From positions 1 to 64,000 of IMG/VR virus record IMGVR_UViG_3300027969_000058: 64,000 nt of DNA; one strand, given 5' to 3'. Of the stretch, positions 21,395 to 38,827 are shown piece after piece; positions within the stretch are counted from its first letter, which is position 1, and every line of letters begins with the position of its first letter. This DNA is from a virus. Under the pieces are notes generated by a model. That model did no database searches and had not been told where the DNA came from. It saw only the letters and a list, made by a program, of their open reading frames with translations. The translations under genes and the position numbers were made by a program.

Positions 21395-21419
21395 ATAACT
21401 TATTACTTATCTCTTTTTA

Positions 21420-21509
21420 TGGCGGAACGACTGAGACTCGAACTCAGAACCCGGATTACGCCGAGCGACAGATTAGCAATCTGCTCTAATACCATTATAG
21501 GACCGTTCC
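21420..21509 (-). tRNA. tRNA-Ser(GCT)
   Basis: Class II with a long variable arm (CTCGGCGTAATCCGGG), anticodon loop TTGCTAA, acceptor GGAACGG, discriminator G, encoded CCA. Confidence 0.94.
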
Positions 21510-21594
21510 ATATAGAAGCACACTTAGAACTTTTCGCAACGGAGGTGTTCTTTCCAAGTGCATAGCTTATAACTATGCTAAATGTGCTTTTATA
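21510..21594 (-). ncRNA. Structured spacer between tRNAs
   Basis: Outer arms TATAGAAGCACA and TGTGCTTTTATA enclose two inner hairpins (AGAAC/GTTCT and GCATAG/CTATGC), a three-way-junction shape. No ORF. May be an RNA processing signal or a small structured RNA. Confidence 0.45.
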
Positions 21595-21706
21595 TGGTGT
21601 AGCTGGGAGGCTTCGAACCTCCAAAGGTTTTTGAATTATATTCTAAACCCGACCCCATTCTGTACTATAAGTACAGCGGGAGCTTTGCCTATTTGCTCAC
21701 AGCTAC
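21595..21706 (-). tRNA. Class II tRNA with anticodon TAT (Ile-type codon AUA), atypical
   Basis: Acceptor GTAGCTG/CAGCTAC, T arm GGAGG-TTCGAAG-CCTCC, encoded CCA. The anticodon stem CTGTA/TACAG holds loop CTTATAG, so anticodon TAT. It has a 37-base variable region with its own stem, which is not normal for isoleucine tRNA. A second one is at 28217. Charging identity is uncertain. Confidence 0.72.
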
Positions 21707-21713
21707 TATTGTA

Positions 21714-21742
21714 ATTATACAACATTAGCTAAGAGCTGTCAA
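21714..21742 (-). promoter_or_regulatory. Sigma70 promoter TTGACA-17-TATAAT
   Basis: -35 TTGACA at 21737-21742, -10 at 21714-21719. Initiates the tRNA transcript beginning with the class II TAT tRNA. Confidence 0.85.
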
Positions 21743-21748
21743 ATATTT

Positions 21749-21823
21749 TGGCCGGTCTTGCAGGAGTCGAACCCACGACTTTTGTTTCGAAGACAAAGAT
21801 GATATCCATTTCACCAAAGACCG
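21749..21823 (-). tRNA. tRNA-Arg(TCG)
   Basis: Anticodon loop CTTCGAA, acceptor CGGTCTT, discriminator G, encoded CCA. Confidence 0.93.
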
Positions 21824-21827
21824 TATA

Positions 21828-22979
21828 TCAATTTAGATACTTGTTAATCCAGAAATCAAAGGTTTCGGTTTGATTTCTCAATGCTGGTAATGTTTGCATA
21901 TATTCAACGCAGTTATCCCATTCTTCTGTGGGAGGTGCATTAGTAAGTTCTATTCCTGTAAGGATCATTCGTCGTGCTATCCCCGGACAGTTACCACTGG
22001 TTAAGTATGCATTGAGCTTATCTCTTACTCTTTGTTTAATTGCTTCTGGCAATTGTGCAACACGTAATTGCTCCGGAGCAATAATAGGTGAACTCATCAA
22101 GGTTGGAAATTTTGTTGTATTACTCCAGAGTTTTGTAATAGTTTCAACACACTCCGGCAATGCAAATACATTGTAAGCACCTATAGTAATTTGAAATCCT
22201 GATGGATTTAAATACTTTGAAAGAAGTATAAATTTTTCTCTAAATTCGTCTTGGTCTATACCTCGTATCCAATAATTTAAGTCTAATGGTGCATCAATAG
22301 ATACATTTATTTGTATATCACATTCTGCTAACTTTTCTGCAATTGCTTGTAAATGGCTTTCTTTAATCTGCTTAAGACCTGTAGATAATGACAATATCTT
22401 TAGCTTAGGTGCATTTGAGATAATGTCTATAAACTTTAGAAAGTTTGGACTTATTAATGGCTCACCGCCGTACAAATGTACTACTTCTAAATCATTGAGA
22501 TGATTGTTAATTTCCTCAAAATTAGATTTTGAATTAATTGGATGTTCTTTATTAATTTCTACAAATCTGTGGTAAGTTTTAATATCCGCAGTCTTTAGTA
22601 AATTTCCAATAGTAGTGGAAAAATGAGAACCGCACATCACACAAGAACTTGCACAGACATTGTCAAGTGCAATTGTTACTTTTTTAAGTTGGTGTGTAGT
22701 AGGAGCAGTCCATCCTGTCTTGCGATAATTATCTTCTGAAAATTTTCTAAAAGAATAATTATTTTTAGGAACATCACAGGCTCGACATCCTTCGAGTAGC
22801 CTGCCACTTTCAAAGTGATCTTTACGCCATGCAACTAACTTTTCTGAAAAGAAATCGGCAACAAAATTTTCATCGTATGGAGTAGGTCCTATAAACTTAC
22901 AACAAGGCCTTGCACCACCATAGGGATTTACTTCAATGCTGTAGTACGGTACCCAGCACAATGGTTCTGTTTTTTGCAT
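21828..22979 (-). CDS. Radical SAM enzyme, twitch/SPASM-like
   Basis: 383 residues. The iron-sulfur motif is C109-x3-C113-x2-C116 (NVCASSCVMCGS) in the position of the S-adenosylmethionine cluster. The N-terminal part has paired Cys (RPCC; EGCRACDV) that may hold an auxiliary cluster, as in SPASM/twitch enzymes. VVHLYGGEPLISP is the downstream GGE motif that binds SAM. Such enzymes make carbon-carbon or sulfur bonds in peptides, or modify tRNA. Five bases from tRNA-Arg; substrate unknown. Confidence 0.85.
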   Translation of the reverse strand: MQKTEPLCWVPYYSIEVNPYGGARPCCKFIGPTPYDENFVADFFSEKLVAWRKDHFESGRLLEGCRACDVPKNNYSFRKFSEDNYRKTGWTAPTTHQLKKVTIALDNVCASSCVMCGSHFSTTIGNLLKTADIKTYHRFVEINKEHPINSKSNFEEINNHLNDLEVVHLYGGEPLISPNFLKFIDIISNAPKLKILSLSTGLKQIKESHLQAIAEKLAECDIQINVSIDAPLDLNYWIRGIDQDEFREKFILLSKYLNPSGFQITIGAYNVFALPECVETITKLWSNTTKFPTLMSSPIIAPEQLRVAQLPEAIKQRVRDKLNAYLTSGNCPGIARRMILTGIELTNAPPTEEWDNCVEYMQTLPALRNQTETFDFWINKYLN

Positions 22980-22990
22980 ATTATATTTAT

Positions 22991-23069
22991 TGGTTGCAGA
23001 GGCAGGATTCGCACCTGCGATCTGTAGCTTATGAGACTACCGGGGACGGCTGGACTCCCCTACTCTGCG
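22991..23069 (-). tRNA. Initiator-like tRNA-Met(CAT)
   Basis: Anticodon loop CTCATAA. The first pair is C1 opposite A72, the hallmark mismatch of bacterial initiator tRNA. D-stem GGGG/CCCC is long; T loop is TGCGAAT with G at position 55, unlike normal. The three G-C pairs of standard initiator anticodon stems are missing, so it may be a variant or an Ile2-type. CCA encoded. Confidence 0.85.
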
Positions 23070-23075
23070 ATAATT

Positions 23076-23151
23076 TGGAGCGGCTAACCGGGTTCGAACC
23101 GGTGACATTCACGTTGGCAACGTGATGCTCTACCAACTGAGCTACAGCCGC
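23076..23151 (-). tRNA. tRNA-Gly(GCC)
   Basis: Anticodon loop TTGCCAA, acceptor GCGGCTG, discriminator T, encoded CCA. Confidence 0.95.
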
Positions 23152-23154
23152 AAT

Positions 23155-23925
23155 TTATACTTTACCTATTAGTGGTATCAACCACTTTCCTATATCAAAC
23201 TCATACCATGCATGGCTATCATGATGTCTTGAAGGGTGGGCGTGATGATTATTCTGCAATGCACCTGATCCTTGCCAGCAAAGCCAACTGAACCATGCAA
23301 AGTTTCTACTATTATCTTTAGTTTCAAATCTTCTTGAACCCCACATGTGTCCTGCACTATTTGTAAAACTTGTAGTTAACATTCCAATACTTGATCCAAG
23401 GCACATAAACACAGTTAAGTGCCAGTCGATTGCTAACGTAACCACTATACCCAACCACCAAACTTTAATAGAATGTTGTTCAATAAACAAATAAAACTTA
23501 TCTGATAAAAATCGTTTTCCTAATAATAAAGAAAGCTTCATAGGATGTTTTGTAAGCTGCCAACCCATAAATGCTTTCCAAAAATTTTCAACAGGGCTGT
23601 GTGGATCTTCGGCTGTGTCGCTTTTGGCATGGTGTGTTATATGTACTATCCTATAAGATATAGGACTACCAAATGCTCCCAATGCCGCAAATATTGATCC
23701 AACTCGGGCAACCCACGATTTGCATTCAAATGCCTGATGGCTAAAATATCTATGTAAAAAGATACCTTCTCCTACTACGTAAAACAAAAACCATGAACAA
23801 AATGAAACTGATAACCATATGTAATTTTGCTCTGTAACTAATAGCACTATTGCTAATACAGCAATCAAATATTGTACAAAAATTGTCTGCAGAGTATAGT
23901 TTCTAATTGATCCGATACTGTTCAT
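23155..23925 (-). CDS. Membrane fatty-acid desaturase (paralogue 3)
   Basis: 256 residues. Histidine boxes HRYFSH, HITHH and NNHHAH are all present at spacings like the other paralogues, with hydrophobic pairs between. Its ATG overlaps the stop of the 49-residue gene upstream (ATGA). Starts a transcript that ends next to tRNA-Gly. Confidence 0.9.
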   Translation of the reverse strand: MNSIGSIRNYTLQTIFVQYLIAVLAIVLLVTEQNYIWLSVSFCSWFLFYVVGEGIFLHRYFSHQAFECKSWVARVGSIFAALGAFGSPISYRIVHITHHAKSDTAEDPHSPVENFWKAFMGWQLTKHPMKLSLLLGKRFLSDKFYLFIEQHSIKVWWLGIVVTLAIDWHLTVFMCLGSSIGMLTTSFTNSAGHMWGSRRFETKDNSRNFAWFSWLCWQGSGALQNNHHAHPSRHHDSHAWYEFDIGKWLIPLIGKV

Positions 23926-24071
23926 TTAGTTTTCTTATCCTTTATTTTCTTTAAAAATAACCAACGAATATAGGATGGTAACTTAATTGGTAGATCAAAC
24001 GATTCTAAAGAAGGTGTAGTTTCTTTAGGAATATGACCGTATGCTTTTTCAAGCGTTTCTTTAGCTGACAT
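23922..24071 (-). CDS. Small basic protein, 49 residues
   Basis: MSAKETLEKAYGHIPKETTP at the start; LPSYIRWLFLKKIKDKK near the end is amphipathic. Translationally coupled to the desaturase by an ATGA overlap, so it may be a partner or adaptor. No family recognised. Confidence 0.7.
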   Translation of the reverse strand: MSAKETLEKAYGHIPKETTPSLESFDLPIKLPSYIRWLFLKKIKDKKTK

Positions 24072-24088
24072 AGCACTGCTCCTTTATT

Positions 24089-24165
24089 TGGTGCCCCAGG
24101 GGAGACTCGAACTCCCAAAATTTGGCTTCTAAGACCAACACGTATACCAATTCCGTCACCGGGGC
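24089..24165 (-). tRNA. tRNA-Leu(TAG), short variable arm
   Basis: Anticodon loop CTTAGAA, acceptor GCCCCGG. The variable loop is only about five bases; bacterial Leu tRNAs normally have a long arm. CCA encoded. Confidence 0.85.
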
Positions 24166-24812
24166 GTTATAAGTTTACCTTCATTTACTTTATCGATAAC
24201 TTGCTGAAAAGTCATTGATAAGCATTTAAATCTAAGGAACACACGTTCCTTGTCATTATTTCTCACTCCATGAATAATATCACCATTAAACATACTTGGG
24301 TGAGTAAGACTGTAGTGATAACTATAAATTAAATCTCTGTCAGGTTTAATTGCCTGAGCATAACCTTTTGCACGTTCCCATGTTTCACCCTCTGGCAGTC
24401 TATAAAAATCTATAGGACTTGCACCCTCATCAGGGTAAATTGGAAACATAATACCGCAGTGCATGTGGTAATCAACATGCGGCTTAAAAACATATCCGGG
24501 CTTGTATATAAGCACATCAACATCCGGACCAGTCAATGGCTGATCAAAGTTAAATCTGCTTACTAATTTCTTAATAGGTTCAAAATCTTTTACCTGTTTG
24601 CCTATAAAACCAGCAGTATCGATTGTATCAAACAATCCATCTTGAAATTCTTTACCGTGTGATAAATTTGAGGGATTTCGTTCTTTTCTAAATCTATTTA
24701 AAACTGATCCAAAATCATTTCTGTATTGTCTTACGCTTTCAAACCAATCTTTTAATTCGGTTCTGTCGTATGTAACTTCGTCAAATATCACATGATGTTC
24801 AAAAATCTGCAT
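24156..24812 (-). CDS. 2OG-Fe(II) oxygenase
   Basis: 218 residues. PGYVFKPHVDYHMHCG gives the HxD pair; GDIIHGVRNNDKERVFLRF gives the distal His and the Arg that binds 2-oxoglutarate. The prolyl-hydroxylase-like core is complete. Its final bases overlap the 5' end of tRNA-Leu(TAG), so the transcript runs into that tRNA. Confidence 0.8.
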   Translation of the reverse strand: MQIFEHHVIFDEVTYDRTELKDWFESVRQYRNDFGSVLNRFRKERNPSNLSHGKEFQDGLFDTIDTAGFIGKQVKDFEPIKKLVSRFNFDQPLTGPDVDVLIYKPGYVFKPHVDYHMHCGIMFPIYPDEGASPIDFYRLPEGETWERAKGYAQAIKPDRDLIYSYHYSLTHPSMFNGDIIHGVRNNDKERVFLRFKCLSMTFQQVIDKVNEGKLITPR

Positions 24813-24870
24813 AAGAATTCCTATGTTCTCTACTGCTATTTATTGCGTAGCCCATATATGCAGATTATTA

Positions 24871-24945
24871 TGGCGGTCCGAACGGGAATCGAACCCGTCT
24901 CCTCGCAGTGACAGTGCGAAATACTAACCGATATACTATCGGACC
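24871..24945 (-). tRNA. tRNA-Asp(GTC), copy 1
   Basis: Anticodon loop CTGTCAC, acceptor GGTCCGA, discriminator G, encoded CCA. Confidence 0.94.
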
Positions 24946-24950
24946 GAAGT

Positions 24951-25027
24951 TGGAAGTGCGAGTGGGACTCGAACCCACGGCTTTACGGATTTGCAATCCG
25001 GTACATTGGCCACTCTGTCACCGCACT
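24951..25027 (-). tRNA. tRNA-Cys(GCA)
   Basis: Anticodon loop TTGCAAA, acceptor AGTGCGG, discriminator T, encoded CCA. Confidence 0.93.
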
Positions 25028-25034
25028 ATAAAAT

Positions 25035-25123
25035 TGGTGGAGATGATAGGATTCGAACCTATTGCGTTTCTTAAGTACCGGATTTACAGTCCGGGGCCAC
25101 TCCACCATCGTAGCCGCATCTCC
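25035..25123 (-). tRNA. tRNA-Tyr(GTA)
   Basis: Class II with variable arm TACTTAAGAAACG, anticodon loop CTGTAAA, acceptor GGAGATG, encoded CCA. Confidence 0.93.
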
Positions 25124-25350
25124 ATTTGTTATACATACCTGTTATGGACAGTAATCGCCCTACTGCCGTTTGTGGAATTCACACTCCCTGGAACGCTTAT
25201 TACTAAGACCGCTAAGTCTATGATTCGACGATTTCCACATCCTGTTAAGGTTAACCTTAGACCATGTCTAAGTGAGCCGGCACTCCCCTATATTGCGTCG
25301 GATGACATTAAGCTGGTGAACACAGCTTTTTTCCGGGTATGTATAACAAA
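25124..25350 (-). ncRNA. 226-nt structured RNA candidate
   Basis: Lies between tRNA-Tyr and tRNA-Glu. Its ends pair perfectly over 15 bp (TTTGTTATACATACC with its complement), and inner segments form further hairpins around GGTTAACC and a CAGTA...TACTG pair. No ORF of note. It is not a recognisable RNase P, SRP or 6S RNA. Probably a separate RNA or a processing domain of the tRNA transcript. Confidence 0.6.
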
Positions 25351-25425
25351 TGGTACTCGATAGCGGAGTCGAACCGCTCTTCCCAGGATGAAAACCTGGT
25401 GTCCTAACCGATAGACGAATCGAGC
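25351..25425 (-). tRNA. tRNA-Glu(TTC), copy 1
   Basis: Anticodon loop TTTTCAT, acceptor GCTCGAT, encoded CCA. First gene after the promoter at 25478. Confidence 0.94.
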
Positions 25426-25477
25426 ACAATGTCTTTTAAATTTTTAAGGAACAAGACTAATTGCTTAGTATGTGTAT

Positions 25478-25506
25478 ATTATAGCATCAACGCTGTAATG
25501 CGTCAA
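25478..25506 (-). promoter_or_regulatory. Sigma70 promoter TTGACG-17-TATAAT
   Basis: -35 TTGACG at 25501-25506, -10 at 25478-25483; starts the Glu/structured-RNA/Tyr/Cys/Asp transcript. Confidence 0.82.
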
Positions 25507-25549
25507 CTCATTTTGGCTCAAGAATAATAAATCTTGAGTAAATAATAGT

Positions 25550-26242
25550 ATGACTAAACCATACTTTAAACTCAATCTTCCAATCCCTACCAACAAGCTA
25601 TTAGCACCTACATTCAAATTACCAGGCACAGAGTACAATGTTGATAATCCATATATCCCAGTTGAAAAAGATGTACATGGTAACGCATTAAATTGTGCTA
25701 CACACAATAAGTGGATACACCGATTTAACGGACCCGACGGTGGCGCAGGATATGTGCCTATTCTCGATGTTCTCAGTAAAGAACTTGTAGATTTTATGAC
25801 TGCTCGAGATCTCGATATAGGTTGTATCTTTATATTCTACGCATGTCCCGGAAGTCTTCCGGGCGGAATACACGCAGACTGGGGAAATGTCACAACAGGA
25901 AAACATGCTAATTTTGCAATTAACTGGACAGTAGGAGAGCCAGGAGGCAGTAGCATGATTTGGTATGAGCCTATCGATCCAACTGTTGACGAAAATGGTT
26001 GGCCAATTAAGGCCCAGCCGGCTGCACTTGCTTATCCAATTCCTACTTGGAAGAAAAAGTATGTTCAAGAAATTGCAAGATACAGTATTGACGAGCCTAC
26101 ACTGGTAAGAACTGACATACCACACAACGCAGAAAACTATTCCGAAACTCCCCGATGGTGTTTTAGTATTCGAACTAATTTGGTTATTACAGAATGGCAG
26201 GAAGCGATCGATAAATTTTCAGACGTCCTGGTTGAAGTTTAA
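25550..26242 (+). CDS. 2OG-Fe(II) oxygenase-like protein
   Basis: 230 residues, first gene of a plus-strand patch. GSLPGGIHADWGN holds the H-x-D pair, AINWTVGEPGGSSMIWYEP is a beta-rich core, and TDIPHNAENYSE gives the distal His followed by SIRTNLVI. Resembles the family of the other oxygenases here. A hairpin (CTCAAGA/TCTTGAG) precedes the ATG. Confidence 0.65.
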   Translation: MTKPYFKLNLPIPTNKLLAPTFKLPGTEYNVDNPYIPVEKDVHGNALNCATHNKWIHRFNGPDGGAGYVPILDVLSKELVDFMTARDLDIGCIFIFYACPGSLPGGIHADWGNVTTGKHANFAINWTVGEPGGSSMIWYEPIDPTVDENGWPIKAQPAALAYPIPTWKKKYVQEIARYSIDEPTLVRTDIPHNAENYSETPRWCFSIRTNLVITEWQEAIDKFSDVLVEV

Positions 26243-26244
26243 TT

Positions 26245-26321
26245 TGGTACGGTGAGCGGGATTCGAACCCGCACTCGACAGATTTTAAGTCTGTTGCCTC
26301 TGCCTATTGGGCTACCACCGC
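26245..26321 (-). tRNA. tRNA-Leu(TAA), short variable arm
   Basis: Anticodon loop CTTAAAA, acceptor GCGGTGG with G1-T72 and G7-T66 wobbles. Variable loop of five bases, again without the class II arm. Encoded CCA. Converges on the oxygenase gene. Confidence 0.85.
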
Positions 26322-26345
26322 ATATATTCTAACTATAAATAGATC

Positions 26346-27125
26346 ATGAATAGATCAACTATCGACCCTATAATACTGTCTACAGTAGGAATAACATTTC
26401 CTATTGTGTCAATATTTTGGATATTTTTAAATTTAAACTTAGAATCAATATTAACATTATACTTGACTTCTTGGTTTACAGCCATACATGTTACACTATT
26501 TGCGCATCGTGCATGGACACACAAAGCATGGATACCAAATTTAGTTGTTAAAATCTACGGACTGTTTATGTTCACAGTTCTGTTAGTGGGTAACAGTATT
26601 GGTTGGGTTTCTGTGCATAGAGAACATCATCGGCATACTGATACAGACAAAGACCCACATAGTCCGTACTTTAAATCAAGATTACAAATACATTTTCTAT
26701 CCTACTTTAACGAAATTAAAATTCAATACATAACTGATCTCATGCGTGACAAACATCAGTTATTTTTTGCTAAACAGTATTGGACTATTAATCTAATTCT
26801 ATTCTTAGTATTATTTTTAATAGACCCTAACTTATTATTCTTTTGGATCGCAGTCCTTGGCGTAAATGTTATTAAAATGCATACTATAAACTCTTTAGGA
26901 CACAACACTCCAAAGTTTCTATTACCTATAGACAATACTGCTGGTAGTTCTAATAGTCTAATACTTGCGCTGATTAATATTAACAACGGTGAAGCATGGC
27001 ATAAGAATCATCATGATGATCCTAAGAATTGGAATTTTAGTAGACGATGGTACGAAATTGATCCGCCGGCTTGGATAATACGAGCGTTAGTCTTTGCAAG
27101 ATTAGCAAAATTTAATAATGGATAA
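26346..27125 (+). CDS. Membrane fatty-acid desaturase (paralogue 4)
   Basis: 259 residues. Boxes HRAWTH, HREHH and HKNHH are intact; hydrophobic helices occupy about residues 10-55 and 150-190. It is on the plus strand, unlike the other paralogues, and overlaps the start of the oxygenase-like gene at 27118. A TATAAATA sequence at 26334 lies too close to the ATG to be a reliable promoter. Confidence 0.9.
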   Translation: MNRSTIDPIILSTVGITFPIVSIFWIFLNLNLESILTLYLTSWFTAIHVTLFAHRAWTHKAWIPNLVVKIYGLFMFTVLLVGNSIGWVSVHREHHRHTDTDKDPHSPYFKSRLQIHFLSYFNEIKIQYITDLMRDKHQLFFAKQYWTINLILFLVLFLIDPNLLFFWIAVLGVNVIKMHTINSLGHNTPKFLLPIDNTAGSSNSLILALININNGEAWHKNHHDDPKNWNFSRRWYEIDPPAWIIRALVFARLAKFNNG

Positions 27126-27864
27126 TACAATGGACATCTTAGATATATTATATACACCGCTTGCTGTAAAGCCGCAACCTGATTACCAAATTGAAGATTT
27201 ACGAAATTGGTTAGCTAACAATTATGGCCCGCTTGCCAGATATAAAAATATCCTTGCAAGTACACGACTTATAGCAGAACGAGTAGTTGAAAACTACCCT
27301 TGGGATTTAACTGTTGCATATATTAATATGACTGATACAGGTCCGGGATGGCTCAATGGATTTGATAAACAATTCCCTGAGCTTTCTAAATATCTGTACG
27401 AAGCATTCGACTTGCCGCTTGAAGAACTTGGTCTTGTAATATTCTTGCCTATTCGAGAAAACCATAAAGGTTTAGGCTTTTGGCATAATGACGGTGATAT
27501 CTCAGGTTTACGAATATTCTTTGAAATAGAGGATGTTACTAAAAACAAACTACTAATTCGTAGGATGAAAGAACCCTATGAGAAAAGACTTAACATTCCA
27601 ATACCTATGGATGAAGACACATATCTTCAAAAAGAAGTATTTGAATGTAAGATCCTATCTGATAGACAATGTCATTTTCTTAATAACATACGAGGAGCAC
27701 ACGCAACTTATACCGAAGAATTAGGCACTAATAGGATTGCTGCATTTGTTACCAGTAAACTGAATAATCAACAAAAGTTTTTTGATTTAGTTAAACCATT
27801 GATATTGAGATCTGCTGAACAGTATAAAGAGCATGTTATAATGTGGGAACCTGAATCTAAATAA
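27118..27864 (+). CDS. 2OG-Fe(II) oxygenase-like protein
   Basis: 248 residues. FWHNDGDISGLRIFFEIED is an H-x-D-type segment in a strand-rich context, with a later His (RGAHATYTEELGTNRIAAFV) and Arg in the expected order. The start overlaps the desaturase stop, so both enzymes are made together. An internal ATG four codons later is possible. Confidence 0.65.
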   Translation: MDNTMDILDILYTPLAVKPQPDYQIEDLRNWLANNYGPLARYKNILASTRLIAERVVENYPWDLTVAYINMTDTGPGWLNGFDKQFPELSKYLYEAFDLPLEELGLVIFLPIRENHKGLGFWHNDGDISGLRIFFEIEDVTKNKLLIRRMKEPYEKRLNIPIPMDEDTYLQKEVFECKILSDRQCHFLNNIRGAHATYTEELGTNRIAAFVTSKLNNQQKFFDLVKPLILRSAEQYKEHVIMWEPESK

Positions 27865-27867
27865 GTT

Positions 27868-27956
27868 TGGAGGAAGGATGGTAGAATCGAACTCCAACCG
27901 CTTTCGCAGTCCATCTGTTTTCAAGACAGTGCAGGGCCCAGCCCTGATAACCTTCC
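27868..27956 (-). tRNA. tRNA-Ser(TGA)
   Basis: Class II (variable arm GGACTGCGAAAGCGG), anticodon loop CTTGAAA, acceptor GGAAGGT, discriminator T, encoded CCA. Confidence 0.9.
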
Positions 27957-27962
27957 GAATGC

Positions 27963-28037
27963 TGGCGCGGCGAATTGGACTCGAACCAACATAGAACACT
28001 TTAGAAGAGTGTTGCCTTTCCATTAGACTACCGCCGC
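27963..28037 (-). tRNA. tRNA-Arg(TCT)
   Basis: Anticodon loop CTTCTAA, acceptor GCGGCGG, discriminator G, encoded CCA. Confidence 0.94.
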
Positions 28038-28045
28038 AATAAAAA

Positions 28046-28121
28046 TGGTACACCCTGTTGGAATCGAACCAACTTCAACGGCTCTTCAGACCGCCGCTAT
28101 GACCACATCAGCTAAAGGTGC
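28046..28121 (-). tRNA. tRNA-Phe(GAA)
   Basis: Anticodon loop CTGAAGA in stem GCGGT/GCCGT, acceptor GCACCTT, encoded CCA. Confidence 0.9.
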
Positions 28122-28133
28122 AATAAATTGTAT

Positions 28134-28210
28134 TGGTACCCCCTGTCTGATTCGAACAGACAGCCAACTCCTTTTGAGAGAATCCGCACTACCAATTAGC
28201 GTAAGGGGGT
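28134..28210 (-). tRNA. tRNA-Leu(CAA), short variable arm
   Basis: Anticodon loop CTCAAAA in stem ATTCT/GGAGT, acceptor ACCCCCT/AGGGGGT, T arm GTCTG-TTCGAAT-CAGAC, encoded CCA. Third Leu tRNA without a class II arm. Confidence 0.82.
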
Positions 28211-28216
28211 ATTGTA

Positions 28217-28308
28217 TGGTACCAGCGGAGGGAATCGAACCCTCTCAAGAACGCTAATCTGGCGCTAAAAGTCTTATAAGGACTCTCTGACTACCAAGTC
28301 TCGCTGGC
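28217..28308 (-). tRNA. Class II tRNA with anticodon TAT, copy 2
   Basis: Acceptor GCCAGCG/CGCTGGT with G1-T72, anticodon loop CTTATAA in a six-pair stem, variable-arm stem AGCGC/GCGTT, T arm GAGGG-TTCGATT-CCCTC, encoded CCA. Same odd class as 21595-21706. Confidence 0.75.
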
Positions 28309-28317
28309 ATTAAAAAT

Positions 28318-28393
28318 TGGGGTATCCTACCGGTATCGATCCGGTACTACCGATTTCACAGAACGGGGTGCAGGCCACTACACTAAGGACACC
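28318..28393 (-). tRNA. tRNA-His(GTG)
   Basis: Anticodon loop CTGTGAA. The extra G-1 pairs with discriminator C73, the histidine identity pair, both encoded. One mismatch in the anticodon stem. CCA encoded. Confidence 0.92.
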
Positions 28394-28403
28394 ATAGAAA
28401 ATT

Positions 28404-28477
28404 TGGCAGGGGCATTAGGGATCGAACCTAAACTAACAGAGTCAAAGTCTGTTGTGCTACCATTACACAATGCCCCA
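28404..28477 (-). tRNA. tRNA-Gln(TTG)
   Basis: Anticodon loop CTTTGAC, acceptor TGGGGCA with an open 1-72 (T-T) position, weak as expected for Gln, discriminator G, encoded CCA. Confidence 0.93.
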
Positions 28478-28483
28478 ACAATT

Positions 28484-28558
28484 TGGTAGCCAATGATGGG
28501 AACGATCCATCGACCCCCGCCTTATCAAGACGGTGCTCTACCACTGAGCTAATTGGCT
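28484..28558 (-). tRNA. tRNA-Ile(GAT)
   Basis: Anticodon loop TTGATAA, acceptor AGCCAAT, T loop ATCGTTC (unusual), encoded CCA. Confidence 0.9.
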
Positions 28559-28621
28559 AAAATTTGTGCTGGGTAGGTGCTCCAGCGACGATCGTCTTGA
28601 TATTATCTCACGCCCCTTGTT

Positions 28622-28695
28622 TGGCGTACCTCCAGGGACTCGAACCCCGACGAACAGTTTTGGAGACTGTCATGCTGCCATTACATTAGAGATAC
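28622..28695 (-). tRNA. tRNA-Trp(CCA)
   Basis: Anticodon loop CTCCAAA, acceptor GTATCTC, discriminator G, encoded CCA. The 63-bp gap above holds a GCTGG/CCAGC hairpin. Confidence 0.93.
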
Positions 28696-28700
28696 ATAAT

Positions 28701-28776
28701 TGGTAGTAACGGTCGGACTCGAACCGACGATAAACACCGTATGAAGGTGGTGCATTAGCCACTATGCTACGTTACC
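28701..28776 (-). tRNA. tRNA-Met(CAT), elongator
   Basis: Anticodon loop TTCATAC, normal G1-T72 acceptor, so probably the elongator (or a lysidine-type Ile2). One mismatch at 27-43. CCA encoded. Confidence 0.88.
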
Positions 28777-28842
28777 ATATGTAAACACACTTCATGAGCA
28801 TGAGCCCACTTGTCTCCTAAGGATAGAGTGTGTTTACATATG
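28775..28842 (-). ncRNA. Perfect inverted-repeat spacer between Met and Lys tRNAs
   Basis: Arms CATATGTAAACACACT pair perfectly (16 bp) with the far side and reach to the CCA of tRNA-Lys; the loop holds CTTAGGAG. Likely an RNA processing or cleavage stem. Confidence 0.55.
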
Positions 28843-28914
28843 GTAGGGGTGCTCGGGAACGATCCGAGTTTTACTGGTTAAAAGCCAGTTACTTCACCTT
28901 AAAGTTTCACCCCC
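28841..28914 (-). tRNA. tRNA-Lys(TTT)
   Basis: Anticodon loop CTTTTAA, acceptor GGGGGTG, T loop ATCGTTC, encoded CCA. Confidence 0.92.
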
Positions 28915-28917
28915 ATA

Positions 28918-28992
28918 TGGTCCACGCTCTGAGAATCGAACTCAGTTAGTCCGGTTAAGAGCCGGGTACTTCGCCACTAAAGTTTAGCGTGG
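28918..28992 (-). tRNA. tRNA-Lys(CTT)
   Basis: Anticodon loop CTCTTAA, acceptor CCACGCT, D arm like the TTT gene next door, encoded CCA. A paralogue pair. Confidence 0.92.
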
Positions 28993-29052
28993 ATGGTCGT
29001 AATATATTTTCTTTTACGTGCCATCCAGGACCATACGGGGTCTAAGATGACA

Positions 29053-29073
29053 CTAACGTTTAGCACGTTTCAT
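29053..29073 (-). CDS. Possible six-codon minigene (MKRAKR)
   Basis: ATG at 29073, stop TAG at 29053, preceded by a perfect AAGGAG SD with six-base spacing. Lies between tRNA-Thr and tRNA-Lys in the tRNA transcript. May be a leader peptide or chance. Confidence 0.3.
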   Translation of the reverse strand: MKRAKR

Positions 29074-29100
29074 GTCGTTCTCCTTATGAACATTTTTAAA

Positions 29101-29160
29101 AACAGGATGCTTATTTTTCAATTAAAAGTTGAATTTAAAATTTGCTGTTCGCATCCTTAA
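29101..29160 (-). repeat. RNA motif copy A (AACAGCAAATT stem-loop)
   Basis: Arms AGGATGC and GCATCCT enclose AACAGCAAATT; CTGT follows the 3' arm. Directly downstream of the tRNA-Thr CCA. Confidence 0.6.
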
Positions 29161-29162
29161 CT

Positions 29163-29236
29163 TGGTGCCCCATGACAGAATCGAACTGCCGTAACCTGAT
29201 TACAAAACAGGTGTAATACCATTATACTAAAAGGGC
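29163..29236 (-). tRNA. tRNA-Thr(TGT), copy 2
   Basis: Anticodon loop TTTGTAA, acceptor GCCCTTT, mismatch at 31-39, encoded CCA. Different body from copy 1. Confidence 0.9.
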
Positions 29237-29241
29237 AAATT

Positions 29242-29319
29242 TGGCTGTGCGTCCAGGAATCGAACCTGGCTCAATCTTCGTTAACAGCGAAGCGCCTACA
29301 CCTTGCTTGCTCACGCACA
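29242..29319 (-). tRNA. tRNA-Asn(GTT), copy 2
   Basis: Anticodon loop CTGTTAA, stem CTTCG/CGAAG, acceptor TGTGCGT, large D loop, discriminator G, encoded CCA. Confidence 0.9.
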
Positions 29320-29325
29320 ATAAAT

Positions 29326-29400
29326 TGGCGCCGTAGATGGGACTCGAACCCACCTGGTATGGATAGACAATCCACTGCCCTCCCCGAGGACTACTACGGC
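29326..29400 (-). tRNA. tRNA-Asp(GTC), copy 2
   Basis: Anticodon loop TTGTCTA, acceptor GCCGTAG, discriminator G, encoded CCA. Confidence 0.93.
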
Positions 29401-29421
29401 ATATTGAATTTTATTTAATTG

Positions 29422-30186
29422 TCAACGTTTAATTAACTCAATTAAACGAGCACCGATATCTATTTCGTGGTCAAGTTTACCAAATCTATAAGATTTAGGG
29501 TCATGGTGATGATTATTATGCCAGCCTGCCCCTAACGAAAAATAGGATATTATGGGAACATTGCGTGAATTATCTTTGGTTTTGTAACTCACGTATCCAT
29601 ATTTAGAATTGTGGAAAAAATAATTACTTAAATTATCAGCTACTGTCATTAAGAAATAGCCGCCAATGCAGAAAAAGAATAAAAAGAAATAAGGATTAAT
29701 TAAAAATAGTATTAATCCAATACCCCAATAAAATTTGTAATAGTGGTCATGTATCAATCTAATAACTTTATCTCTATACAAACTGCGAGGTGCTATTAAT
29801 CCGGATACATTTTCTAATGTAGGTTTAATAAACCAAAGAAATGAACTTTGCCAAAATCCATGTATTGGACTATGTAAGTCAGCTTGTGTATCAGAATGTC
29901 TATGATGATGTAAATGAAGGGCAGTCCAAAAAATAGGACTACCTTGTCCAGTTAAACTACCAAACACAACAAAGATATAGTGCCAAAATTTTGATACCTC
30001 AAAGCTTTGATGTGTTAAGTATCTATGAAACCCAATGGTGTTTCCAAATATACCTAATATATAAAAACCCAATATAGAATATAAAATGTAAAGCCAATGA
30101 AAATTAAAAATCAATACGCCAAGGGCAAATATCGTTAAGAATATTTGTGGTAACATTAATATATAAAAGTGCTTGCTCATCATCAT
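29422..30186 (-). CDS. Membrane fatty-acid desaturase (paralogue 5)
   Basis: 254 residues. Boxes HRYLTH, HLHHHRH and HNNHHH complete. Three ATG codons run in a row at the start (30186, 30183, 30180), so the exact start is unclear. Phe-rich hydrophobic stretch near residues 155-185. Only membrane desaturase next to Asp tRNA; no coupled neighbour. Confidence 0.9.
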   Translation of the reverse strand: MMMSKHFYILMLPQIFLTIFALGVLIFNFHWLYILYSILGFYILGIFGNTIGFHRYLTHQSFEVSKFWHYIFVVFGSLTGQGSPIFWTALHLHHHRHSDTQADLHSPIHGFWQSSFLWFIKPTLENVSGLIAPRSLYRDKVIRLIHDHYYKFYWGIGLILFLINPYFFLFFFCIGGYFLMTVADNLSNYFFHNSKYGYVSYKTKDNSRNVPIISYFSLGAGWHNNHHHDPKSYRFGKLDHEIDIGARLIELIKR

Positions 30187-30222
30187 ATTTATAATAAGAC
30201 TTGGGAAAGGATTGAACTTATT

Positions 30223-30297
30223 TGGTACTCCGAACGGGAATCGAACCCGTGTTACCGACTTGAAAGGCCAGCGTTCTAACCATTAAACTACCGGAGT
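30223..30297 (-). tRNA. tRNA-Glu(TTC), copy 2
   Basis: Anticodon loop CTTTCAA, acceptor ACTCCGG, G7-T66 wobble, encoded CCA. Confidence 0.92.
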
Positions 30298-30304
30298 GTA
30301 ATAA

Positions 30305-30368
30305 AACAGGATAGCATTTTGTTTTCATTTCCATTGAAAGTTTTTAATTTGCTGTTGCTATCCTTAAC
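30305..30368 (-). repeat. RNA motif copy B (AACAGCAAATT stem-loop)
   Basis: Arms AGGATAGC and GCTATCCT (a compensated insertion relative to copy A) around the same AACAGCAAATT. Lies just after the tRNA-Arg CCA. Confidence 0.6.
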
Positions 30369-30369
30369 T

Positions 30370-30444
30370 TGGTGCCTCTGTATGGAATCGAACCACAATC
30401 CCTGGTTTCGTAAACCAGTATATTATCCATTATACTACAGAGGC
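30370..30444 (-). tRNA. tRNA-Arg(ACG)
   Basis: Anticodon loop TTACGAA, acceptor GCCTCTG, encoded CCA. Last (5'-most) tRNA of the main array. Confidence 0.93.
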
Positions 30445-31276: not shown

Positions 31277-32428
31277 TTATTTTTCAACTAAGATGCCTGC
31301 GCTGACTCCGCCGAATCCAAAACTTAATTTGATAAAGTTTGAAGTGTCTTGCTTTTTAATATTATGCAACACAATATCATGCTTTGTCAAGAGGGGATCA
31401 GTAGTTAATGATGTATAAGGTATCCAACCTTCCTGCATACCAACTATTGAGTAGGCAGTTTCAATACCTGCCGATGCTGCCAGTGTATGACCTAACGATC
31501 CTTTTAATCCATAGATTGAAGTTTCGTAAGGCAACTGCTCAAGACTCTTCAGTTCAATATCGTCGCCTACCTTAGTACTGGTTGCATGGCAGTTAAAACT
31601 GTCAATCTTATTTTCAAAAGCGCCAAGATTCTGTAACAAGTATAATCCTGCAGATCCGTCTGGACTCGGAGACGTTAGATTGTAGAAATCGTTGTACAAA
31701 CTTATTTTCTTAATCTTAGCAACATACTTCTGTGCAAAGTCTTCCCGAGTTATGACGTAGCAGACTGCGCCTTCACCTAACGCCATCCCGGATCTGTTTT
31801 TATCAAAAGGCATCACGTTGTCTTTTGTGTATACGCCCATAGAGTTAAAAATAAATGCACTAATAGGAGTTGTAGATTCTACACCTATAACAATAGCAGT
31901 GTCAACAACCCGGGTAATTAGCATACTTTCTGCTATACTGAGTGCAGTTAGGAAACCACTACAAGCCTGAGTAATCATTAAACTGGGGCCGGTTAGTTTC
32001 AATGTTCTACTAACCGTTGTGCAGATAGTACTGGCAGTGCCAATTGCACATAGTTTAGGACTAATTCTCGATTTCTTTTGTTCAAAGGCTTTCCAAATAT
32101 CAAATTTTACATCAGATGAGCCTTCAAGAGTAGTGCCAATAACTGCGGTATTCTTAGGCAACTTTAACCCATGGCATGCACGTAGGGCAGTTAACACAGG
32201 CAACTTAATTTGACGAGTCATGTATAATTCATTAAACCCCAATAACTGTAATTCTTTGTCAATTTCTTCAGTAGTAGCAGGTACATCATATTTGCTTAGG
32301 CCGCTAACTTGCTCTTCGGTATATCTTGAAGAATTTGCAGCATTGCCTTTTTTGTAGTTAGCTACTGAATCTGTTAAATTTAATCCATTAGCGTCGATGA
32401 TATCGAGTGCGTTAATAATTATAGTCAT
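31277..32428 (-). CDS. Beta-ketoacyl synthase (KAS I/II type)
   Basis: 383 residues. Nucleophile Cys in TQACSGFL (C156), active-site CHATSTKVGDD (first His) and LGHTLAASAG (second His) form the Cys-His-His set of decarboxylating KAS enzymes. Condenses malonyl- and acyl-carrier units in fatty-acid or polyketide assembly. No acyl-carrier protein or other FAS subunit is visible in the window, so it must rely on the host or on genes outside. Sits 7 bp from an unknown gene and next to a PP-loop enzyme. Confidence 0.88.
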   Translation of the reverse strand: MTIIINALDIIDANGLNLTDSVANYKKGNAANSSRYTEEQVSGLSKYDVPATTEEIDKELQLLGFNELYMTRQIKLPVLTALRACHGLKLPKNTAVIGTTLEGSSDVKFDIWKAFEQKKSRISPKLCAIGTASTICTTVSRTLKLTGPSLMITQACSGFLTALSIAESMLITRVVDTAIVIGVESTTPISAFIFNSMGVYTKDNVMPFDKNRSGMALGEGAVCYVITREDFAQKYVAKIKKISLYNDFYNLTSPSPDGSAGLYLLQNLGAFENKIDSFNCHATSTKVGDDIELKSLEQLPYETSIYGLKGSLGHTLAASAGIETAYSIVGMQEGWIPYTSLTTDPLLTKHDIVLHNIKKQDTSNFIKLSFGFGGVSAGILVEK

Positions 32429-34107: not shown

Positions 34108-34134
34108 AAAAAAATAGACCCCGAAGGGTCTATG
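34108..34134 (-). terminator. Rho-independent terminator of tmRNA
   Basis: ATAGACCC-TTCG-GGGTCTAT followed by T7 on the minus strand, after the tmRNA tag region. Confidence 0.9.
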
Positions 34135-34372
34135 GTTGTTTATTTTACAAGGTAAGTCCTACCCCGGAGTTGCAGTTTCTTAGGCTGCTAATTCAAAACC
34201 TTCGTTATTGCTTGCGAAAACATTAACGTTGGTTTCAAAATACTCGAATGTATTTGCTGTTGCATTTACTTTGATTTGCTTGATTTAGAGTCATCGCCTA
34301 CTCAGTTGCCGTCTCTAACTATTTGCCCAATCGATTACCAGAGCAGGCCCAACTAAGTAGTCTCGCACCAAC

Positions 34373-34446
34373 TGGTGGATATAGCGAGAATCGACCTCGC
34401 ATTTTATAGATTCGGAATCCATCTGTCCTACTTGGACGATATACCC
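34373..34446 (-). tRNA. tRNA-Arg(CCG), inside the permuted tmRNA spacer
   Basis: Anticodon loop TTCCGAA in stem ATGGA/TCTAT, acceptor GGGTATA/TATATCC, T loop GTCGATT, encoded CCA. Lies between the two tmRNA halves, so its processing could also help open the tmRNA precursor. Confidence 0.85.
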
Positions 34447-34527
34447 GACACTACTTAGGTGGACCTGGCGAGATTCGAACTCGCGTCTTGAACACATCCT
34501 TTTTGAAGGGATTACAACTATACGCTT

Positions 34528-34556
34528 ATTATAGCGCATTGTATTTAGCGTGTCAA
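34528..34556 (-). promoter_or_regulatory. Sigma70 promoter TTGACA-17-TATAAT (tmRNA)
   Basis: -35 TTGACA at 34551-34556, -10 TATAAT at 34528-34533; perfect consensus. Start near 34521. Confidence 0.92.
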
Positions 34557-35345: not shown

Positions 35346-36047
35346 TTAACTCCTTTTGAATTGTTTGATAGCAGATTTAACTAAACTATCAATGCTATTT
35401 ATTAGTGGGATATTACCCTGCTGAGATTCTCTCACTGCTAACGGTATCTCTGTACAGCCTAACACAACTGCGGTTGCTCCGCGAGTAATTAGACTATCTA
35501 CTACAGACATCAACATTGCGTGTGATTTAATCATGTCACCTGCTTTGACTAAATCTATAGCAGGCTGTACCAATGTATCCATTTCTTCTTTAGTGGGTAC
35601 TATACAATCCCAACCTTGTTTATTAAGTTTGTATTGATACAATCCTAACTCAATAGTTGCCTGTGTGCCCATTAGTCCAACTGTAGAATTTGTTACATTT
35701 ACATCTCTTAATGCATCAGCAACGCTGTCTACAATGTGTATGATAGTAACTCGAGGATTTTGTCTAACTAATTCACTATACCAAAAATGTGCGGTATTAC
35801 ATGGAATAACAATTAAGTTGCAACCTGCAGAAAATAGCCCCTTAATTCCAGCTAATAGATAAGGTAACGGCTTGTCATCTTTATTAAGTAAACTTGTGCT
35901 GCGATCTGGAACAATAGGGTCACTCCATAACACAAAAGGTATGTGGTCTTGGTCACAGGTAGCAGGAGTTTGTTGGATCAATCTAACAACATACTCGGCA
36001 CTGGCAGCAGGACCCATTCCGCCAAGTATGCCTAATCGTTTAGTCAT
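35346..36047 (-). CDS. Aspartate/glutamate racemase
   Basis: 233 residues from MTKRLGILGG. Catalytic Cys pair in PCNTAH (Cys 83) and GCTEIP near 195, as in RacD/MurI-type racemases. Interconverts L- and D-aspartate or glutamate. In an operon with an acidic-amino-acid symporter and a solute-binding protein, so the substrate is probably Asp or Glu. An upstream ATG would add 27 residues but overlaps the next gene. Confidence 0.88.
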   Translation of the reverse strand: MTKRLGILGGMGPAASAEYVVRLIQQTPATCDQDHIPFVLWSDPIVPDRSTSLLNKDDKPLPYLLAGIKGLFSAGCNLIVIPCNTAHFWYSELVRQNPRVTIIHIVDSVADALRDVNVTNSTVGLMGTQATIELGLYQYKLNKQGWDCIVPTKEEMDTLVQPAIDLVKAGDMIKSHAMLMSVVDSLITRGATAVVLGCTEIPLAVRESQQGNIPLINSIDSLVKSAIKQFKRS

Positions 36048-36099
36048 AATACAATCAATATGATTATTAAAATACCAACGGCTATGACTGTAGGGAGTC

Positions 36100-36702
36100 T
36101 CATTTTTTGAATAACAATGATGAAGCAATGATCAGTGCTGTTTGTGCGGCTTCTACATCAGTGGGCTGTTCTTTCCACCCTACACTAATTTGTCCAATGA
36201 ATACACCAGGTTCTGCCGGCACACTAATACGACACATATAGTTAACACCATTGTCTTTGTAGGTAAACCCAATAAGACTCTGTGGTTTTGTATACGGACT
36301 ACAGGGAATTTTACCAGACATTAGGCCAATGACATCATTGTTGTTATCGTAGTTTTTACTAAACAACCCAACATCTAAGCCATTGTGGTCTTTTATCTTC
36401 CCACCATTGCGTGTGGCCAAGAACGCAATTTTTCTTGTATTTGATAGAGTGTTAACTTCCATGATAGACACAAGTTCTATGTCTGTATGTTTTATTAGAA
36501 AGTTGTATGCTTCTTCATATTTGCCATTCATCTTTGGCATGGCTTGTTGAGCACGGTAGCTGGCCATAAAGGCATCTTTTTCGCTGTAGGCTACCCATCC
36601 TAAAAAAGTGAATAGGCAAAGGAATACAACAGTGAATAGGCGAAATGGACTTTCGCCTATATAAGTCAGTAACCCAAAGAAAAAATCTTTAAGTTTGTCC
36701 AT
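36100..36702 (-). CDS. Membrane-anchored periplasmic-type domain protein
   Basis: 200 residues. One membrane helix (FRLFTVVFLCLFTFLGWVAY, about 21-40), then a globular domain. VYxxxxNxTRKIAFLATRNGG and GFTYKDNGVNYMCRISV may form a sensor-like fold. Overlaps the symporter stop by 14 bp. Might modulate the transporter. No family recognised. Confidence 0.6.
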   Translation of the reverse strand: MDKLKDFFFGLLTYIGESPFRLFTVVFLCLFTFLGWVAYSEKDAFMASYRAQQAMPKMNGKYEEAYNFLIKHTDIELVSIMEVNTLSNTRKIAFLATRNGGKIKDHNGLDVGLFSKNYDNNNDVIGLMSGKIPCSPYTKPQSLIGFTYKDNGVNYMCRISVPAEPGVFIGQISVGWKEQPTDVEAAQTALIIASSLLFKK

Positions 36703-37963
36703 CCGCAGTTACCTCTTTATCGCAGACAAATGCTGTAACTGCTACGTTGCCGTGTACGTGACTTGCTGTGCGAATCATATCCATCAATGGGTCAACTGCA
36801 ATTAACAATACCAATACTGCTTCGCTTGGTAATTTTAACAAATCACAGACAACTGCCACTGTGGCAACTGTGAGAATACCTGTTGTACCTGCTGATGCTA
36901 AACCTGCTAAGATACTGCCAAACAACACCACCAACAATCCAGTAACTCCCATAGGTGCACCGTAGATGTTGGCAATAAACACTGTGGCAATTGCGTAATA
37001 AACAATACTGCCAATGCGGTTAACTGTGAAACTTAGTGGCACAGTTAATTCTACACCAGTTCTTTCAAACTTTAACTTGTGTAGTGCTTCTTGTGCGTAT
37101 GGGATACAGGCTAAACTACTGCGTGAACTAATAGCAACAATCAGCGTTTCCTTAGTTTCTTTAATAACAGTCATTAGGCTCAGGCCCGAACGTTGCCAAA
37201 TAACAATAGTACCAGCAATGATAACCAGTAATCCACCAATGGCCTGTTGCATGATAAACTCAACCATGGTCAAGAAAATACCAACACCCACTTTACCAAC
37301 TTGGCTACTGATCATTGCTAACAGTGCAAACGGTAGAAAATAGTTTAAGAACTTAAAAATACTGATACTGGCCTGTTGAACGCTTTTCAACATGTCCACT
37401 AATATTTCCTGTCCTGTACTTTTAATGTTGCCTAAAGCAATACCAAAGATTAAACAGAAGATAACAATCTTCAAACTTTCACCAGCGGCTAATGTATTAA
37501 AGATATTTTCTGGAATAAACTTCTGTGCCATTTGCATTGGGTCAACGTGCGGTGTAACGGGCATCGGTTCTTTTAATGTAATGTTAAGATCACTTCCAGA
37601 TTCTTTGTCGTTAACAATTGAACCAAGCTGTGCTTGTTTTGCAGGAGTCATTTCGCTACCAGTCAACGCAACAGTACCAACACCAATAACTGCGGCGAGG
37701 AACATACTGCCAACAAAGCCAATGATAATTTTGCGTATCATTGCGGCACTGCCTTCTTTTTGTAGTAGACTAATAACACCAACTAAAATAGTTGCAAGTA
37801 AGAAAGGTATTACCACAACTTTAAGCAAGCTGATGTAAATTCCCCCAACACTTTCAAAGTTCATACTTTGTGCAGGTGCATACACTCCTGCCAATACTCC
37901 AAGTATGATTGACCCTAAAATAGTCCACGGACTTGATAAGAAGTTTTTTAAATTAAATTTCAT
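36689..37963 (-). CDS. gltP: Na+/H+:dicarboxylate (glutamate/aspartate) symporter
   Basis: 424 residues, eight or more membrane segments. SSRSSLACIP corresponds to the Ser-rich hairpin before the transport domain, and GLASAGTTGILTVATVAVVCD to the second hairpin and helix of the DAACS family. Imports Glu, Asp or C4-dicarboxylates with sodium or protons. Full-length for the family. Such transporters are rarely seen in phages; sits between the solute-binding protein and the sensor-like gene. Confidence 0.9.
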   Translation of the reverse strand: MKFNLKNFLSSPWTILGSIILGVLAGVYAPAQSMNFESVGGIYISLLKVVVIPFLLATILVGVISLLQKEGSAAMIRKIIIGFVGSMFLAAVIGVGTVALTGSEMTPAKQAQLGSIVNDKESGSDLNITLKEPMPVTPHVDPMQMAQKFIPENIFNTLAAGESLKIVIFCLIFGIALGNIKSTGQEILVDMLKSVQQASISIFKFLNYFLPFALLAMISSQVGKVGVGIFLTMVEFIMQQAIGGLLVIIAGTIVIWQRSGLSLMTVIKETKETLIVAISSRSSLACIPYAQEALHKLKFERTGVELTVPLSFTVNRIGSIVYYAIATVFIANIYGAPMGVTGLLVVLFGSILAGLASAGTTGILTVATVAVVCDLLKLPSEAVLVLLIAVDPLMDMIRTASHVHGNVAVTAFVCDKEVTADGQT

Positions 37964-37975
37964 TTTGTTTCCTAA

Positions 37976-38827
37976 TTATTTCGTTACAGGAGCCGGAGTC
38001 TTTTTCTCAGCTTTGTATCGATCCATTAACTTCTTTGTGTCAATGTTACTGTATTCAGTTCTAATAACATAGTTAACTATGCTGAGTAGTTGTACTGAAT
38101 TAACATTTGCAGCCACAGCAATGTTATCAATGGAGTCGGAGATAGTCACTGTTTTGGTAGTGATTGCTGCCTCGGGCTTTTCAAATGAAATTTTCTTAAT
38201 TTCAAACTCATCTCTATAGCCAGCGGCAATTGCGCCGTTGGTTACATTATTGATAATTGTATCCCAACTATCTTCGGGAGTATATACAGCTTTGGGGAAA
38301 TTTGCACGGGCAAATGTATCATAACTTGAATTACGGACAAAAGATATCTTTCCGTTAAATGTTCTAATCACTTCATACACTTCTCGACCTTGTGAATTTT
38401 GACTCAACCAAAGACGATTAATAATCATTGCTTGTTTAAGTTTGATATAGGGATCGCTAAATCTAACAACTTGTAAACGTGGACCAGTTACAGATAATTT
38501 GCTCACAGCAAGATCTGCACGGCCGTCACGAACCTGTTCTACAACTTCGGCGAAACTCTCTGCGTCTCGTCTAAACTGTACAGGGACTCCGATAATTACA
38601 CCAATTCGGCGTGCAATTTCAACGTCAAGTCCTCGAATGTCGTCACCTTCACCACTGAAGAATGGAGGAACGTCTTTTTTAGTCATAGCAATGATTAAGA
38701 CGTTTTTCTTCTTAATTGCTGCAATGTCTGTGGGTAGTGGTACGGTTGAACCAGCCAGTTGGGCAACAGCGTGTGCTGAAGTAAGGCCGGTAACCAGTAC
38801 AAAGAGTAATGTGAGTAGTTTTTTCAT
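37976..38827 (-). CDS. Periplasmic amino-acid-binding protein, SBP family 3
   Basis: 283 residues. Signal peptide MKKLLTLLFVLVTGLTSAHA (cleaved near A21), then the type 3 layout: PPFFSGEGDDIRGLDVEIARRIG, RDGRADLAVSKLSVTGPRLQVVRFSDPYI. Binds amino acids. No ABC permease or ATPase is next to it; it is paired with a symporter, so its role may be in sensing or feeding the symporter. Confidence 0.88.
   Translation of the reverse strand: MKKLLTLLFVLVTGLTSAHAVAQLAGSTVPLPTDIAAIKKKNVLIIAMTKKDVPPFFSGEGDDIRGLDVEIARRIGVIIGVPVQFRRDAESFAEVVEQVRDGRADLAVSKLSVTGPRLQVVRFSDPYIKLKQAMIINRLWLSQNSQGREVYEVIRTFNGKISFVRNSSYDTFARANFPKAVYTPEDSWDTIINNVTNGAIAAGYRDEFEIKKISFEKPEAAITTKTVTISDSIDNIAVAANVNSVQLLSIVNYVIRTEYSNIDTKKLMDRYKAEKKTPAPVTK

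Follow-up and report, generated by a model that had tools for sequence, protein, structure and literature searches.

The intervening segment (IVS) that separates the halves of a phage permuted tmRNA gene is probably an exchangeable cargo slot, and in the phage described here its present occupant is a tRNA. From sequence comparisons we give this reading a probability of about 0.72. The permuted, two-piece tmRNA gene with a tRNA in its IVS is confirmed as real by the evidence set out below. We treat the tRNA as cargo, and not as a device needed to split the tmRNA, because it is absent from most relatives, many of which have protein genes in that position. Taken by itself, the nested tRNA adds one more case to a rare arrangement that has been reported once before. 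The more surprising parts are the cargo-slot pattern and the tRNA's combination of an alanine-type acceptor with an arginine anticodon.

A permuted tmRNA gene with its own promoter and terminator

The window is a 64-kb stretch out of a 114,735-base IMG/VR virus record, a phage from metagenome sequencing. ARAGORN calls a permuted tmRNA (tmRNA*) on the minus strand at 34549-34089. The Rfam model tmRNA_permuted (RF04321) matches the same strand at 34519-34180 with 96.4 bits (cut-off 47, E 1.9e-17), and the alignment spans the full model length, positions 1-213. An initial sequence-only reading of this DNA had proposed a permuted phage tmRNA and suggested the Rfam permuted models as a check; the ARAGORN call and the RF04321 score bear the proposal out, and beta_tmRNA (RF01850) also matches the gene, at 96.3 bits.

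The tmRNA halves lie in reversed order and rebuild a 7-bp acceptor (GGGCCUG/CAGGUCC) with G3:U70, followed by A73, an encoded CC, and then U rather than A. The T arm is standard (GCGAG-UUCGAAU-CUCGC), and the gene has a resume site and a 27-residue tag, ATANTFEYFETNVNVFASNNEGFELAA, which ends in ELAA. The acceptor, A73, T arm, and tag had been described in that reading and are all present, as are the promoter and terminator that it called perfect. The features are as follows.

34528 to 34556, minus strand: sigma-70-type promoter TTGACA-17-TATAAT, with 12 of 12 matches
34458 to 34519, minus strand: tmRNA acceptor piece (the tmRNA 3' part, first in the gene; putative 5' end), comprising a helix strand, the T arm (34468-34484), CAGGUCC (34461-34467), A73, and the encoded CC
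34351 to 34457, minus strand: IVS of 107 nt between the tmRNA halves
34450 to 34457, minus strand: IVS 5' arm TAAGTAGT, which pairs with 34354-34361 and prolongs the acceptor helix
34373 to 34446, minus strand: nested tRNA, anticodon CCG at 34415-34413, supported by ARAGORN, Rfam tRNA, structure, and compensatory changes
34367 to 34376, minus strand: trailer hairpin ACCA-GT-TGGT, pairing the tRNA's 3' ACCA end, conserved in 4/4 variants
34354 to 34361, minus strand: IVS 3' arm ACTACTTA
34134 to 34350, minus strand: tmRNA coding piece (putative 3' end), comprising the 5' acceptor strand GGGCCUG (34344-34350), resume site, tag, and downstream region
34180 to 34263, minus strand: tag reading frame ATANTFEYFETNVNVFASNNEGFELAA and its stop
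34108 to 34133, minus strand: intrinsic terminator with an 8-bp stem (34133-34114), a loop of 4, and a T run

Permuted tmRNA is known from Alphaproteobacteria, Betaproteobacteria, Cyanobacteria, and phages, chiefly aquatic (PMC9004378, PMC11915505). The host hint that had been drawn from the permuted form needs amending: the list on which it drew, alphaproteobacteria and cyanobacteria, left out the Betaproteobacteria, and the beta model is the sole clade-specific Rfam tmRNA model among the matches listed over cut-off in the window.

Other features of the window are recorded here as side observations. Unusual metabolic genes lie at 19163-20323, 21828-22979, 31277-32428, and 35346-38827; they include tryptophan halogenase-like, radical SAM, beta-ketoacyl synthase, Asp/Glu racemase, sodium:dicarboxylate symporter, and solute-binding protein genes. 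Three proteins (1792-2574, 26346-27125, and 29422-30186) match one PHROG (35201) and are apparently a repeated gene family.

A cloverleaf with an atypical elbow

The nested tRNA is a 74-nt ARAGORN call (34446-34373, minus strand, anticodon CCG). When the IVS is scanned alone, it matches the Rfam tRNA model at 45.5 bits (cut-off 29, E 3.4e-9); it is absent from the Rfam matches of the full scan, presumably because the overlapping tmRNA match, of the same clan, scored higher. When the IVS was dinucleotide-shuffled 20,000 times, no shuffle yielded a tRNA call. This result speaks against a chance fold, and an assembly artefact is countered by the same arrangement in contigs of other samples (L008/L224/L226, L018/L231/L234, and L232); even for an IMG/VR virus record with no isolate behind it, we give these two explanations almost no credence.

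The tRNA has G3:U70, A73, an encoded CCA, the D loop AAGTA, and the T loop GTCGATT. It lacks the standard elbow: the D loop is without G18-G19, and position 54 is G, not U, as in 3 of the four variants described below. The usual elbow contacts would thus be missing from the cargo tRNA, which makes ordinary decoding less likely. The sequence-only reading had placed a complete tRNA-Arg(CCG) within 8-bp arms in a 107-nt spacer. The cloverleaf and its setting stand, given the 45.5-bit score and the shuffles; "complete" fails for the tertiary core, and "tRNA-Arg" holds for the anticodon, with identity uncertain because the acceptor has alanine identity.

Four variants in one phage group

Relatives were gathered via the phage's DnaK and via DNA patterns. 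Permuted tmRNA is common in this set: RF04321 scores over its cut-off in 21/50 DnaK-related records, many of which are fragments. A tRNA in the IVS occurs in four distinct variants: the window, L008 (identical in L224 and L226), L018 (whose group includes L231 and L234), and L232, those beyond the window being from other samples. A look for tRNAs in the tmRNA spacers of related phages, as had been proposed for this locus, thus gave three further variants, and these carry compensatory changes. In the four-variant alignment, 98.8% of paired cells are standard pairs and 5 pairs are changed on both sides (IVS arm 1, tRNA acceptor 1, D stem 1, T stem 2). Among the pairing controls, 1/500 shuffles reaches either value, and slid partners give 0-1.

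Several elements persist across the variants. The anticodon CCG and U33 are unchanged in all four, the divergent L018 included, and the CCA of the cargo tRNA is kept. A conserved UGGU immediately after the tRNA could pair with its 3' ACCA in 4/4 variants. A long composite helix, formed by the tmRNA acceptor and the IVS arms and closing a loop, appears in 4/4 folds (z -5.0 to -7.0). The anticodon stem of L018 has two mismatched pairs, and the L018 tRNA, folded on its own, does no better than shuffled sequences. In two tRNA-bearing contigs, neighbouring gene order is partly kept and the tmRNA is placed differently relative to dnaK.

These observations bear on whether the tRNA is a functionless, decaying gene that came to lie in the spacer by accident. 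Its degenerate D and T loops, the poor folding of the lone L018 tRNA, and the lack of any relative found beyond this phage group are what decay would look like. The compensatory changes in the acceptor, D, and T stems and in the arms over four variants, together with the retained CCA and anticodon, speak against it, and we consider it quite improbable.

The four variants are one phage group, and hence few independent events. A blastn search of the locus against the phage collection gave no DNA-level match, a looser tRNA pattern search found no further variant, and with the T arm near the coding piece as query, ARAGORN called only the known cases on the extracted IVSs. A scan for the tRNA 3' end, trailer hairpin, and GGGCCTG returned loci beyond the known variants, which have no called tmRNA and look like chance matches within other genes.

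An arginine anticodon on an alanine-type acceptor

Alanyl-tRNA synthetases of all three domains depend mainly on G3-U70 (PMC6451123). Among 327 distinct tRNAs from the sampled loci, G3:U70 with A73 occurs in 20/20 tRNA-Ala versus 4/307 other tRNAs; these four are the three ARAGORN-called cargo tRNAs and one tRNA-Lys. The fourth variant, L232, is without an ARAGORN call and has identical acceptor features. The nested tRNA therefore has the G3:U70 and A73 of the alanine isotype and an anticodon, CCG, that is not an alanine one. With this acceptor, the sequence suggests that it is likely charged with alanine rather than arginine.

An ordinary tRNA-Arg(CCG) that supplements CGG decoding and merely happens to sit in the spacer would fit the CCG anticodon of all four variants and the phage's large tRNA gene set. 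Such a tRNA would be out of keeping with the sampled loci: G3:U70 is found in 0/27 other tRNA-Arg, as is its combination with A73, and the GGA D-loop motif present in nearly all of those 27 is missing from the nested tRNA. CGG is moreover the phage's rarest arginine codon (31/31,495 codons, 0.98 per 1000), and the phage also encodes a tRNA-Arg(TCG). We therefore hold an ordinary arginine tRNA to be unlikely.

As a side observation on other tRNAs of the sample, six distinct CTA-anticodon tRNAs (ARAGORN label Pyl) occur in L016, L140, L144, L185, and other sampled phage loci, and are possible amber readers.

Spacers without a tRNA

All collected IVSs except the four tRNA-bearing ones are without a called tRNA, and some are just 22-30 nt. 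Since most IVSs lack one, tRNA processing is evidently unnecessary for splitting the tmRNA. Relatives that share the D-loop-region motif have only hairpin spacers of 22-30 nt, such as TAAGTGTATAAGGTATATTTAG, which suggests that the tRNA occupies the apical loop of a minimal spacer.

The sequence-only reading had held that the tRNA's own processing could free the tmRNA pieces. For this locus the idea is possible; as a general mechanism it fails on the other collected IVSs. A stronger form makes the nested tRNA mainly a processing handle, with RNase P and 3' tRNA nucleases excising the tRNA and freeing the tmRNA pieces, and decoding irrelevant. It draws on a cloverleaf fold kept by compensation while the tertiary core is degenerate, on the 4/4 conservation of the trailer hairpin that pairs the CCA end, and on T-arm-like motifs in four more IVSs (7/111 in all, versus 0.19 in shuffles). 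A handle is not required in most related IVSs, very short ones included, and it would not account for the unchanged CCG and U33 of the divergent L018; we judge it a doubtful account of the tRNA.

The four IVSs with T-arm-like motifs and no called tRNA belong to L154, L176, L111, and L290; these motifs may be what is left of other captured tRNAs. The tmRNA spacers of L089, L150, L181, and L217 each contain a direct repeat, two copies of about TAAATTTACTTTGGTATT.

Protein genes in the same slot

The cargo-slot reading draws further on relatives in which the spacer holds an open reading frame (ORF). We counted an ORF where an IVS of at least 60 nt had a Shine-Dalgarno (SD) sequence and an ATG 4-16 nt into the IVS, with a frame covering at least 60% of it. 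By this count, 26/99 IVSs have an SD and ATG ORF filling the slot (shuffles: mean 2.2, maximum 7), and 19 of the 26 stop one base ahead of the coding piece. In a wider catalogue of 164 IVSs, ORFs run from 19 to 133 codons; this set was partly picked for an SD-like arm and so gives no prevalence figure. Loci with long IVSs still match RF04321. The median length of pairing between the closing arms is 12 bases, and in 59/61 cases the SD lies within that helix.

Two of the encoded proteins belong to recognized families. The IVS ORF of L195 is a full 84-residue thioredoxin (WCGPC, Pfam 4.1e-21), and that of L411 is a DUF2061 protein (Pfam 3.7e-21), which the IVS ORF of L400 resembles by eye. The coordinates of the first are as follows.

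L195, 209 to 477, minus strand: thioredoxin gene between permuted tmRNA halves; the same spacer occurs in L465 and L495

Most IVS ORF families, even those of ~20-residue peptides, show pN/pS of ~0.1-0.4, which points to purifying selection in most families and indicates that the ORFs are probably translated. The L099/L439/L462 family has ratios near 1, from few changes. The pairs L031/L085 and L483/L430 were left out of the selection test, as length differences misaligned them.

The exact ORF-type spacer start is found in at least 120 viral stretches, a figure that includes stretches not checked individually. In 84,980 bacterial and archaeal genomes it occurs in 4 places, none of which is a tmRNA on inspection. 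In a bacterial control by class and order, nearly all matches were weak and below the cut-off.

Two further groups of spacer ORFs were noted in passing. Families of hydrophobic peptides of 19-24 residues, with low pN/pS in most pairs, occur in L098, L174, L204, L205, L130, L139, L457, L493, L202, and others, and are possible membrane microproteins. Longer ORFs of 105-133 residues lie in the spacers of L473, L441, L435, L416, L402, and L487, several of them starting MRI.E or MKISE; four of these were run against Pfam and gave no family over the cut-off.

Relation to known systems

Two-piece tmRNAs are already known from phages: they make up 53 of 133 unique phage tmRNAs (PMC9004378). Phage members include that of Methylophilales phage Melnitz (PMC9004378), and Pseudomonas phage SM1 is also a member. 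The gene described here shares with RF04321/RF01850 members the order of acceptor piece, IVS, and coding piece, the alanine-type acceptor, and the tag. Where it differs from known members is the IVS, occupied here by a nested tRNA and in relatives by protein genes.

The closest precedent is a tRNA-Ala gene in the permuted tmRNA IVS of MAG GCA-2688965, a nominally archaeal genome, reported once as a unique feature (PMC11915505). As described there, it is a single case with an intact, high-scoring tRNA-Ala, whereas the present tRNA belongs to a phage lineage and has the anticodon CCG, an atypical elbow, and four covarying variants. This precedent overturns the view of the sequence-only reading that no tRNA in a permuted tmRNA spacer had been described; for phages, we found no such case in the open-licence literature searched.

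Protein genes in a permuted tmRNA IVS were likewise not found reported in that literature, including PMC11915505, which notes that one long IVS contains a repetitive element. The same paper describes tmRNA genes that contain group I introns with homing endonuclease ORFs. These resemble the present case in that a protein gene sits within a stretch missing from the mature tmRNA; theirs is a self-splicing intron located in the T loop (PMC11915505), whereas ours is the spacer of a permuted gene, with no intron or endonuclease.

The phage also encodes a further 32 tRNAs, many of whose genes form arrays (17-31 kb). Unlike the array members, the nested tRNA sits in another RNA gene with its own promoter. 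The thirty-two genes lie at 17151-30444 of the window, interleaved with protein genes, and the remaining 50 kb of the record has none.

Proposed mechanism

We propose that one promoter would yield a single precursor RNA, in which a single long helix is predicted to arise from the acceptor strands and IVS arms, its loop holding the tRNA and a small hairpin. Host tRNA enzymes would cut this precursor at the coding-piece G1, past the acceptor end, and on either side of the nested tRNA. Three presumed RNA products would result: acceptor piece, tRNA, and coding piece. The mature tmRNA would carry alanine and tag stalled proteins. For its part, the nested tRNA may read CGG, the phage's rarest arginine codon, with an alanine charge favoured. 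Where the cargo is an ORF, the SD in the closing helix may make tmRNA folding and maturation, on one hand, and cargo translation, on the other, mutually exclusive.

A broader reading generalizes the IVS into a nested-gene slot, closed by a helix with the cargo's SD at one end and the last codons and stop of the ORF at the other. We give this even odds, and the same balance applies to its corollaries: that a single RNA switch governs both the expression of the cargo and the maturation of the tmRNA; that cargo is swapped between phages, as micro-membrane proteins, thioredoxin, DUF2061, or an alanine-identity tRNA(CCG); and that this last, in the window's lineage, would place alanine at CGG codons.

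Implications

Until now the tmRNA spacer has been regarded as RNA that is thrown away. Should it prove to be a cargo slot, a single phage transcript would supply both the RNA that rescues ribosomes and a tRNA or protein, and the SD inside the closing helix suggests a built-in choice between cargo translation and tmRNA maturation. The spacers are also a source of overlooked small genes, which annotation that masks tmRNA genes would miss. Finally, a tRNA with an arginine anticodon and an alanine-type acceptor raises a testable question: do phages use a misreading tRNA?
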